Origin: Branchiostoma floridae
Taxonomy: Eukaryota > Chordata > Leptocardii > Amphioxiformes > Branchiostomatidae
Direction of reading: 5' to 3'
Assembly (NCBI RefSeq): GCF_000003815.2
Contig: NC_049985.1
Span: 11,337,699-11,401,698, forward strand
Length of the DNA: 64,000 nt
Within the stretch, counting starts at the first letter, position 1. The number at the start of each line of letters is the position of its first letter. The notes under the pieces were generated by a model. It had not been told where the DNA came from. It did not search any database and was given only the letters and a program-made list of their open reading frames with translations. Shown here piece by piece: positions 53-5,014 of this stretch. Position numbers and translations under genes: made by a program.

Positions 53-193
53 AATTGTCTCCTGCATCCCCTCTGTTGTCAGTCAGAGAATGACTTCAGG
101 TGTATCTGAGCTTGACACCCCCATGTGCCTCACTTGGTAGCTCCCAAAGTTCAAAGGTCACCGGTTACCCATGGTTCCTCGCGGCGCATGCGC
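53..193 (+). repeat. DIRS left inverted terminal repeat
   Basis: This is the reverse complement of the right-end sequence at 4842-4974, including the GCGCATGCGC palindrome at 184-193. Homology to the ICR begins at AATT (53-56), which marks the element boundary. The gag-like frame is already open inside this repeat. Confidence 0.88.
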
Positions 194-249
194 ACCAGTC
201 TAATTTTTTGAGCGATTCTGTCAACCCCCGGTGTTTCCAGCTCCTGAAA

Positions 250-1719
250 ATGGGTTCTAAACGCGACAAGGAGCGTTTTAAGAACCGTACGCGGGCTTCT
301 TCGAAGTCTTCAACTGCTGGGCGACACGCTAGAAGCGGCCGAGGAGGCTCGGAGCGGCGTTCCAGCGAGAGACGGCGCGAAGAAGACGGCGCTTCCCCGA
401 GAAGCATGCGCCGACATGTGCGCCGGGGCGGGCGCCATGACAGTCGTCAGCCTTCTTCGTCACCTTCGATGCCGAGATTGAGCGCTGTTCGCGGTCTTTT
501 GGTGGCTGCTGAAGTGCACCAACCGCCGAAGTCTCCCGCTCATGAAGAAGTAGAGCTGCCTTCTAACGTCGAAGTGAGCGAGGAGGAGAAGAATGGCGAA
601 GAGAGCGACGGCGGCGGTGACGGAAAGCGTAGGAAGGATGGCAACAATAATGGCGACATCCCGTCAGAGCCGGAGCTGGTTGATGCTAGCGGCGTACGTA
701 TTTCTGCCTTGGAGAATAATTTTTCATTACTTTCAGAGAAGTTAGATGGGCTCCAAGAGCTGATGATGTCGCAGTTTTCGCAGCCGAAGAAACGGCGGTC
801 TGCGTCTGCAACGGGGTCTGCGCCGGGGAAGCGGCGGCGGCGACATGACCGGCGGTCCCCAGCTCGAGTCGAGACGGAGGAAGAAAGTGTGTCGGACGTC
901 TCGGAGGGCGGGCAGTCGGCATGGAAGCCGTTCGACCCGACAAACAAGACCGTCAAGCACCCTTGGGTTGCTGACGACAACGTGTTGGAGGAGACGGAGA
1001 AATACTTCAAGCACAGCAAGCAGTGTCGCGGGGCTGATCTAGAGGCTTGGCAACAGAAGTACAACTTGCCAGACAACGCCCCATCAACGATGGTTGTACC
1101 GGCCTTCAACGAGAACGTGTCCAGGGCCGTTCTTGAGAATGACAAGAAACAAGGTGATGTGATTGTTTCTCACGATAAATCTCTCAAGTCGGTGCATACC
1201 AATCTAGTGCAAGTTGGAACTCCATTGATCAATCTCTGGCAGTTAATCCAGCGTTCCAGTAAGGATAGTTTTGAGGAACTGCAACTGGACATGATAGATT
1301 GTGTTGGCACAGCTCTGTTACTCCTGGGTTCAGCCCATTCTCATCTAGCTTTCACACGCCGTTCTTTTATTGCCGAGTCTTCTCAGAAGACCTTCAGGGA
1401 TCTGTTCCGCACCCCGTCAGAGGACAACAACTTCCTGTTCCCGCCTGATCTGGGAACTAAGGCAAAGGATTTGTCTTCGGAGAGCAAGGTGCTCTCTGGC
1501 ATGCTGACACAGGCAGAGAAGAGGCAGACCAGCTCGAGACGAGGTGGTCGTCGTACCAACTACAGAGCGGCAGGGGGCGGCAACAGAGGTTATCGCTACA
1601 ACTACATGCCGAGGCCGAACTACAGTAGGCCAAACTACGGCGGGTCTCGCCAGTACTACAACAAGAGTTCGTCCCAGTCTTTTCAGAAGCAGGGGGACGG
1701 GAAGAAGTCAGACAAGTAG
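250..1719 (+). CDS. DIRS gag-like ORF1 protein
   Basis: A 489-aa ORF counted from the ATG at 250. The frame is open from 100, but the first 50 codons lie in the inverted repeat, so the internal ATG is the likelier start. The N-terminal half is basic and Ser/Arg rich with acidic patches, as expected for a nucleic-acid-binding, disordered capsid-type protein. The middle (roughly nt 930-1480) looks folded, with Trp/Leu/Phe-rich segments. The C-terminus is Arg/Gly/Tyr/Asn rich (RGG-like, nt 1530-1690) and probably binds RNA. No zinc knuckle is visible, which is usual for DIRS gag proteins. The last 90 bases overlap the RT open frame in the -1 register. Assignment rests on position plus composition; capsid function is inferred. 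Confidence 0.8.
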   Translation: MGSKRDKERFKNRTRASSKSSTAGRHARSGRGGSERRSSERRREEDGASPRSMRRHVRRGGRHDSRQPSSSPSMPRLSAVRGLLVAAEVHQPPKSPAHEEVELPSNVEVSEEEKNGEESDGGGDGKRRKDGNNNGDIPSEPELVDASGVRISALENNFSLLSEKLDGLQELMMSQFSQPKKRRSASATGSAPGKRRRRHDRRSPARVETEEESVSDVSEGGQSAWKPFDPTNKTVKHPWVADDNVLEETEKYFKHSKQCRGADLEAWQQKYNLPDNAPSTMVVPAFNENVSRAVLENDKKQGDVIVSHDKSLKSVHTNLVQVGTPLINLWQLIQRSSKDSFEELQLDMIDCVGTALLLLGSAHSHLAFTRRSFIAESSQKTFRDLFRTPSEDNNFLFPPDLGTKAKDLSSESKVLSGMLTQAEKRQTSSRRGGRRTNYRAAGGGNRGYRYNYMPRPNYSRPNYGGSRQYYNKSSSQSFQKQGDGKKSDK

Positions 1720-1730
1720 AAGTTTCATCC

Positions 1731-3827: not shown

Positions 3828-4642
3828 GTGAAGTTCTAGATTTTTTGCTGTCCTTATTTGACAAGGGTCTACAATATAGGACCTTGAATGTTTATAGGTC
3901 CGCCATTTCAACAACTCACCTTCCGGTGGAAGGTCTACCTTTAGGTTCTCATGCTTTAGTGAAAAGATTCATGAAAGGAGTGTTTGAACTACGACCAGCC
4001 TTACCGAAGTATCAGTATACTTGGGACGTGAGTAGAGTTCTAAGTTTATTAAAGTCCTGGTCACCGGCAAGAACTTTGTCGATCAAGCAACTTACTTTGA
4101 AATTGGTTATGCTGATAGCATTGGTGTCTGCAGGCAGGGAACAATCCCTCTCCTTGCTGGATGTTAGATACAAGAAGAAGACCTCGGATGGAGTATGTTT
4201 CACCATTAACAGGTTATCAAAGACTTCTAGGCCTGGCAGAGTGACACATGACATTGTTCTACCTAGTTTTCCACGGGACAAAAGAATTTGTCCTGTCTTT
4301 TATTTGAAGGAATATGTTTCTAGAACTAGAAGTTTTCGTTTGTGTGACAGTTTTTTGTTTCGGGCAATGGTGGAACCTCATCAGGCGGTTGGCTCTACCA
4401 CCATTGCCCGGTGGCTAAAGTTAGTCCTCCAGGAGGCAGGGGTGGACACTAACAAGTTTACGGGCCACTCGACAAGGAGTGCAGCTGTCTCAGCTGCGGC
4501 ATTAAGAGGAGTTTCAGCCAAGGACATAATGAAAATGGCAAACTGGTCTACTTCATCTACGTTCGAGAAGTTCTACAGGAAACCTGTCAAGTCTTGCAAC
4601 TTTGGCCGTAAGATCCTGGCCTCAGGCTACGAAGTCACCTGA
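3659..4642 (+). CDS. DIRS tyrosine recombinase
   Basis: About 327 aa from the ATG at 3659. The frame is open from 1544, but upstream of roughly 3650 it reads only as an out-of-frame shadow of gag and RT. An N-terminal helical SAM-like DNA-binding region (SWRPGTQKLYTAAWEKW onward, nt 3730-3950) precedes the catalytic core. Visible catalytic residues are an Arg in SAGREQS (near nt 4136), His and Arg in GHSTRS (near nt 4465-4475), and a Tyr in EKFYRK (near nt 4573). This R...HxxR...Y set defines the tyrosine recombinase family, which integrates circular DIRS cDNA without target duplication. The ORF overlaps the RT ORF by 169 bases and ends inside the ICR. Confidence 0.93.
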   Translation: MACLRRQHSEYGISPGVSKILLASWRPGTQKLYTAAWEKWNSWCGERNIDPVSAPVSEVLDFLLSLFDKGLQYRTLNVYRSAISTTHLPVEGLPLGSHALVKRFMKGVFELRPALPKYQYTWDVSRVLSLLKSWSPARTLSIKQLTLKLVMLIALVSAGREQSLSLLDVRYKKKTSDGVCFTINRLSKTSRPGRVTHDIVLPSFPRDKRICPVFYLKEYVSRTRSFRLCDSFLFRAMVEPHQAVGSTTIARWLKLVLQEAGVDTNKFTGHSTRSAAVSAAALRGVSAKDIMKMANWSTSSTFEKFYRKPVKSCNFGRKILASGYEVT

Positions 4643-4746
4643 AGTCATTCTCTGACTGACAACAGAGGGGATGCAGGAGACAATTACAAATTGTACTAAC
4701 CTGTGCAGGACAGGTGTAATTGTCCTTGCATCCCTCGTTGTCAGGC
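4636..4746 (+). repeat. DIRS internal complementary region (ICR)
   Basis: The reverse complement of 4636-4746 reads as the right terminus running directly into the left terminus, meeting at AATT (4682-4685). In DIRS1 models this region templates circle closure of the cDNA. The recombinase stop codon (4640-4642) lies just inside it. Confidence 0.88.
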
Positions 4747-4841
4747 GGACGCCCACCCCGAGAGAGGCGTAATTCGACATGTTCCTGTGAAGTCCCTCCC
4801 AACACTACTTCGTCCAGGAGTTCTGCAAACAGTATAGTGGA

Positions 4842-5014
4842 GCGCATGCGCCGCGAGGAACCATGGGTAACCGGTGACCTTTGAACTATGGGAGCTACCA
4901 GTGAGGCACATGGGGGTGTCAAGCTCAGATACACCTGAAGTCATTCTCTGCCTGACAACGAGGGATGCAAGGACAATTACACCTGTCCTGCACAGGTTAG
5001 TACAATTTGTAATT
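4842..5014 (+). repeat. DIRS right inverted terminal repeat with terminal extension
   Basis: Bases 4842-4974 are complementary to the left ITR. Bases 4975-5014 are extra, matched only by the ICR. DIRS1 of Dictyostelium also has an extended right ITR. The end is set by AATT at 5011-5014, after which homology to the ICR stops. Confidence 0.85.

Follow-up and report, generated by a model that had tools for sequence, protein, structure and literature searches.

DIRS1-like elements are retrotransposons that carry a gag gene, a pol gene with reverse transcriptase (RT), RNase H and methyltransferase segments, a tyrosine recombinase (YR) gene and inverted terminal repeats (ITRs). As described for Dictyostelium DIRS-1 and the 28 annotated elements of Piednoel et al. 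(2011; PMC3266345), they also have an extension on the right end only, an internal complementary region (ICR) whose two arms overlap at a short motif, and ends of the ATT type. All of this, with the methyltransferase segment as a putative one, is shared by an element that occupies positions 53-5014 of a 64,000-nt stretch of Branchiostoma floridae DNA (contig NC_049985.1, 11,337,699 to 11,401,698, forward strand; hereafter the window). The element is 4962 bp long and has a GC content of 52.6%, against 42.7% for the window. It is almost certainly a structurally complete DIRS1-like retrotransposon, in which the end sequences missing from the RNA are likely recopied from the ICR and a DNA circle is likely inserted by its own predicted tyrosine recombinase.

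Three further details of the known group matter here, each taken from PMC3266345. A long overlap of the pol and YR genes is reported for half of the 28 elements. Their junctions are 3 bp long, except for two of the 28 listed in Table 3, which have 2 bp. The commonest end type in that table is ATT/ATT/AAT, which accounts for 10 of the 28 rows by our own count.

The boundaries and repeats on which the identification rests are as follows.

53-208: left ITR; 53-102 is paired by the left ICR arm, and conservation with the right ITR is highest over 75-193
53-56: AATT, left boundary, read in the sequence
4636-4685: left ICR arm, exact complement of 53-102, overlapping the YR stop codon (4640-4642)
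4682-4746: right ICR arm, exact complement of 4950-5014
4682-4685: AATT, where the ICR arms overlap, corresponding to the circular junction (if that is 3 bp long, AAT or ATT)
4827-4978: right ITR
4979-5014: right extension of 36 bp, without a left-end counterpart and present in the right ICR arm; its last bases are AATT (5011-5014)

The two ITRs are matched at 92% over 156 alignment columns (53-208 versus 4827-4978). Extended base by base, 53-102 pairs with 4636-4685 without a mismatch (50/50), and so does 4950-5014 with 4682-4746 (65/65; the first mismatch is at 4747). Immediately outside these stretches the pairing ends, since 52 is mismatched with 4686 and 4681 with 5015. Therefore, the ICR arms share exactly 4 nt, the AATT at 4682-4685. 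Positions 1-5600 contain 13 inverted pairs. An indel divides the ITR pair into two of them; these two, the left end paired with 4636-4685 and the right end paired with 4682-4749 make up the four longest, at 50-74 nt and 92-100% complementarity. The fifth-ranked pair is 30 nt at 77%. For comparison, just 20 exact inverted 20-mer pairs occur in the sequence downstream of the element (58,986 nt, including 820 N). Perfect inverted matches of 50 and 65 nt are far beyond chance. The initial annotation had proposed ITR/ICR geometry of this kind and a span of 53 to 5014; both are borne out, the span to the base, with AATT at each end. Of the 20 background pairs, the 15 that were listed all start between 10281 and 10565, in a compact palindromic repeat at 10281-10584.

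Other types of retrotransposon fit poorly. A long terminal repeat retrotransposon is ruled out by the YR and the inverted ends. A PAT-like or Ngaro element is ruled out because the terminal repeats are inverted and there are no split direct repeats. Direct repeats reach at most 28 nt (4636-4663 and 4932-4959), and this one simply follows from the ICR and the right ITR.

How might such an arrangement be used? A replication model and the corresponding geometry have been described for DIRS1 elements (PMC3266345, PMC5633606 and PMC5941688). Applied to this element, it would have the transcript start and end inside the ITRs. The ICR would then bridge both ends of the cDNA and restore what is missing from them. 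Joining of the ends would give a DNA circle with one junction motif, and YR would cross that circle into a target with the same short motif (ATT or AATT), which would be left at both ends of the insertion. The sequence features required by this model are all present, and the steps themselves are inferred.

One property of the ICR deserves a comment of its own. As a single DNA strand it folds far better than shuffled versions (z -7.8, with 0 of 200 as stable), mostly because its arms complement ends that are themselves inverted repeats. The two ends folded alone show nothing unusual (z -1.1 and 0.1). The predicted single-strand hairpin of 4636-4749 is very stable and would compete with the proposed bridging role.

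The coding part of the element consists of three long frames.

250-1719, plus strand: ORF1, gag (ATG at 250, stop at 1719), assigned from its place in the element and its likeness to P0002, a DIRS-type protein of Branchiostoma belcheri
1629-3827, plus strand: ORF2, the open pol frame, with RT, RNase H-like and methyltransferase-like segments, in the -1 frame relative to gag
1865-4642, plus strand: ORF3, YR, from its first ATG (the frame is open over 1508-4642), overlapping the whole pol frame
4574-4576, plus strand: codon of the tyrosine among the YR catalytic-type residues R758, K786, H868, R871, W894 and Y904

The recombinase is the most telling of these products. All six catalytic-type residues are invariant in 9 of 9 rows of an alignment of the element with 8 of 18 related proteins. 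They correspond to residues with catalytic roles in tyrosine recombinases, and Cre has the same R, K, H, R, W, Y set. In a Pfam scan the frame matches Phage_integrase with an E value of 5.8e-5 and a score of 23.4, under the cut-off of 27.1. An AlphaFold model of 3605-4639 has a mean predicted local distance difference test (pLDDT) value of 78.5 and a predicted template modelling (pTM) score of 0.57. When the model was compared with the PDB, rows 1-27 of the best 50 matches were all Cre or Tre (best E value 1.1e-9, template modelling (TM) scores of about 0.44-0.52). A profile of the YR family searched against PDB sequences gave 17 matches, again all Cre or Tre (best E value 0.0012), with no single stretch passing alone. 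These comparisons point to a predicted Cre-like fold.

Over the 731 codons shared with pol, the YR frame is free of stops, whereas 2000 synonymous shuffles of pol leave it with 24.9 stops on average and at least 10. Pol overlaps YR up to about residue 653, and some of that stretch is conserved: P0121, a YR protein of B. lanceolatum, aligns with residues 296-921 at 45% but has no match to residues 1-295.

In pol, the RT domain is evident from the element's own sequence (RVT_1, E value 2.4e-21, with YLDD at 2385). The initial annotation's assignment to the DIRS1-like group is supported, as are its ITR/ICR geometry and extended right end. Downstream of the RT lie an RNase H-like segment, with ETDAS at 2883 and a Pfam match of its own at an E value of 0.066, below the cut-off, and a putative methyltransferase-like segment, with DLFAS at 3315 and YAFPPF at 3432. 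Both are recognisable mainly by way of relatives. A pol search found 360 relatives at E values up to 0.001, and the best 120 of these 360 were listed, with Branchiostoma proteins at the top. Among these best 120 the closest are a B. lanceolatum gene model at 81% identity and a B. belcheri protein at 69%; precomputed domain labels give RVT_1 in 120 of 120 and Dam in 22 of 120. In a 22-row alignment of the element with 21 of the 120, the RNase H-type residues D421, E453, D478 and D529 are invariant, as are the DLFA and PP residues of the methyltransferase-like segment. Two relatives picked for their Dam label, P0036 and P0011, pass the Pfam Dam cut-off when scanned. The gag product has no Pfam match and resembles the N-terminal part of B. 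belcheri P0002 (38% over 310 columns and 49% over 72).

It is less clear how pol would be expressed. The initial annotation stated that all three ORFs are open. There are indeed three long open frames, but that of pol has no ATG before 2133, which is inside the RT domain. The overlap of gag and pol is about 90 nt and frameshifting is a possible route to pol, although no classical slippery heptamer was seen by eye in 1629-1719.

Several points weigh against the identification and the proposed cycle. Expression of pol is unexplained, with no start codon upstream of the RT core. The element's own RNase H and Phage_integrase matches fall below the Pfam cut-offs, and the methyltransferase-like segment gives no Dam match at E values up to 1, only PCIF1_WW at 0.15. 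A 15-row YR alignment (the element and 14 of the 18 related proteins, including partial ones) does not list the catalytic set as invariant. The Cre matches of the model (rows 1-27) have TM scores near 0.5 and root-mean-square deviations of 9-11 Å. The ICR-templating and circle steps belong to a model that is experimentally not fully proven, according to PMC5633606. Finally, nothing was seen of a transcript, a circle, another copy or an allele lacking the insertion.

The rest of the window offers no further copy or fragment (blastn at an E value of 1e-3 returned solely the element's own repeats), and tblastn of the window at an E value of 1 gave just two insignificant gag matches (0.94 and 0.95). 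In viral contigs, a single-protein search found two stretches that fit the pattern and an alignment-based search matched 33; none of either set was confirmed as a relative. A literature survey with most subscription journals and Repbase outside its scope yielded no recognised account of a 4-bp DIRS junction or of this amphioxus element.

One aspect that invites more than one reading is the length of the junction. The initial annotation took AATT to be the recombination overlap. AATT is indeed present at 53-56, 4682-4685 and 5011-5014. However, a 4-bp recombination overlap is not established by this, because published DIRS1-like junctions are 3 bp and the present element can be described as the ATT/AAT type plus one matching base. 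Since AATT is self-complementary, a 3-bp core might be either ATT (54-56) or AAT (53-55). Given the base composition of the window, chance alone should add a matching base beside such a core in about 43% of cases for ATT and 49% for AAT. An extra match that is so common means that one copy cannot decide between 3 and 4 bp, and the 4-bp junction is unproven. Probably, then, the junction is the usual one of 3 bp, with ATT at 54-56 and 5012-5014 and AAT in the ICR, or the same in the AAT register, chance accounting for the match of the fourth base. This has published precedent as well as the chance estimate on its side. Nothing direct speaks against it, although the sequence does have four matching bases. 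It is a version of the DIRS1-like explanation and not an alternative to it. The AATT junction makes the choice between 3 and 4 bp answerable from a handful of further copies.

What if AATT were not part of the element at all? In this scenario the element proper would be 57-5010, and the flanking AATT would be a 4-bp target-site duplication from a staggered cut. AATT does border both ends, and a single locus cannot separate duplication from overlap. Moreover, duplication, like overlap, predicts one AATT in the empty site. The difficulty is the ICR: within the element, at the very point where the complements of the two ends meet, AATT stands again, a coincidence with a probability of about 0.006 for a random target 4-mer. 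In addition, the element encodes a tyrosine-recombinase-like protein, and its Pfam matches include no DDE integrase. A 4-bp target duplication is therefore disfavoured by the ICR and is most improbable overall. Under DIRS1-like insertion by recombination, the single empty site would read ...TGTATCCC-AATT-TTGTTTTA..., that is, an empty allele would be expected to read TGTATCCCAATTTTGTTTTA. The initial annotation had suggested the empty site as a test. However, overlap and duplication both leave one AATT, so this test cannot separate them.

The surroundings of the ICR junction contain one more symmetry.

4679-4688: GACAATTACA, left arm of a 10-bp inverted repeat, spanning the ICR junction
4715-4724: TGTAATTGTC, right arm of the repeat, holding a second AATT (4718-4721)

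The repeat is exact over its 10 bp, with 26 bp between the arms. Seven of the 10 bases follow from the fact that the ITRs are inverted repeats, and the three loop-side bases exceed that. Conceivably, the recombinase could use a 4-bp palindromic AATT overlap in a lox-like site, the junction TGTAATTGTC having its exact inverted twin GACAATTACA 26 bp away and either being usable. In this reading, which we consider unlikely, the joined ends form a large imperfect palindrome. If the twin site were used, right ends of two lengths, long and short, or an inverted 26-bp spacer would be expected among the elements.

Is the copy young, as the initial annotation supposed from its open frames? That is plausible, on the evidence of one copy. 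Between the ends and the ICR, none of the 115 pairs compared differs (AATT, which both arms share, enters twice). Left and right ends do differ at 83/4951, but there each end agrees with its own ICR arm, so this difference was inherited. The 91 nt of the conserved ITR part that lie outside the ICR (103-193) contain one indel (near 135) and one substitution (147/4888). Should each cycle make the two ITRs identical, the copy is plausibly young but not brand new. Those two changes also count in favour of an old or dead element, immobile and with frames open by happenstance. So does the pol frame with no ATG before the RT domain, and the B. lanceolatum gene model begins with a methionine where this copy has none. 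However, the other printed rows that cover this position also have no methionine, so that the methionine of the gene model may not be a true start. The three long open frames with their 731-codon double-coding stretch, the conserved YR residues and the 115 of 115 end/ICR pairs also argue the other way. On balance, an old or dead copy is a minority possibility. In a chordate, an element whose ends agree with its ICR and whose frames are open would be a useful substrate for testing DIRS end restoration and target choice.

The left flank within the window is 52 bp. Directly downstream of the element, exons were read by eye from 5352 to about 6600, and the encoded protein matches EXD1 in the PDB (5fiq and 5fis, E value 0.0042), structures of the silkworm protein. 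The insertion thus lies upstream of the first visible EXD1-like exon, probably in an intron of that gene. EXD1 is a factor in the biogenesis of PIWI-interacting RNAs in other animals. A retrotransposon beside or in an EXD1-like gene is a curiosity and not evidence of function.

Farther along the window, three minus-strand ORFs (12834-14273, 17370-19406 and 22429-24534) look related by eye. The second and third have G-patch, R3H and double-stranded RNA-binding domains and resemble NKRF-type proteins; the first is broken by a run of N (13129-13948). A full-length match to 5S ribosomal RNA (28541-28660, minus strand, 54.4 bits) lies within an open frame that also encodes a C-type lectin domain and could be a 5S-derived short interspersed element or a pseudogene. 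An exon-like ORF at 53084-53545 has a zona pellucida domain (E value 4.8e-14). Finally, a TRIM-NHL ORF (61001-63703) shares 95% identity with a protein from the assembly of a B. floridae x B. japonicum hybrid; for B. lanceolatum and a B. floridae x B. belcheri hybrid the value is 83-84%. These matches make a Branchiostoma the most likely host. Within the ORF, a 33-bp tandem repeat occurs in 5.3 copies at 62574-62748.

Compared with known systems, the element is a further member of the DIRS1-like group, well preserved and otherwise ordinary. The overlap of its ICR arms reads 4 nt (AATT) instead of 3, and no other structural difference from the group was noticed. PAT-like and Ngaro elements are also YR-encoding retrotransposons, but they have split direct repeats instead of ITRs and an ICR (PMC3266345 and PMC9210276). 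Likeness to Cre recombinase lies in the predicted YR fold and the R, K, H, R, W, Y set, the structure alignments (rows 1-27) having about 16-18% identity. Nearer relatives are found among the DIRS-type proteins of B. lanceolatum and B. belcheri (P0001, which its source names TNKS2, P0002 and P0121), which at the protein level reach 81% and 69% identity in pol and 59% in the catalytic part of YR. Two elements of B. floridae itself, BfDIRS1 and BfDIRS2, are tabulated in PMC3266345 (Table 3); they are similar in size (4949 and 5269 bp) and share the long ORF overlap and the extension on the right end only. However, BfDIRS1 has ends TTG/TTG (junction CAA) and BfDIRS2 has TTA/TTT (junction AA), compared with ATT or AATT here, and their right extensions (45 and 40) and ICR arms (60-83 and 33-71) compare with 36 and 50-65 here. 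The element therefore differs from BfDIRS1 and BfDIRS2, being set apart from them by tabulated geometry only.

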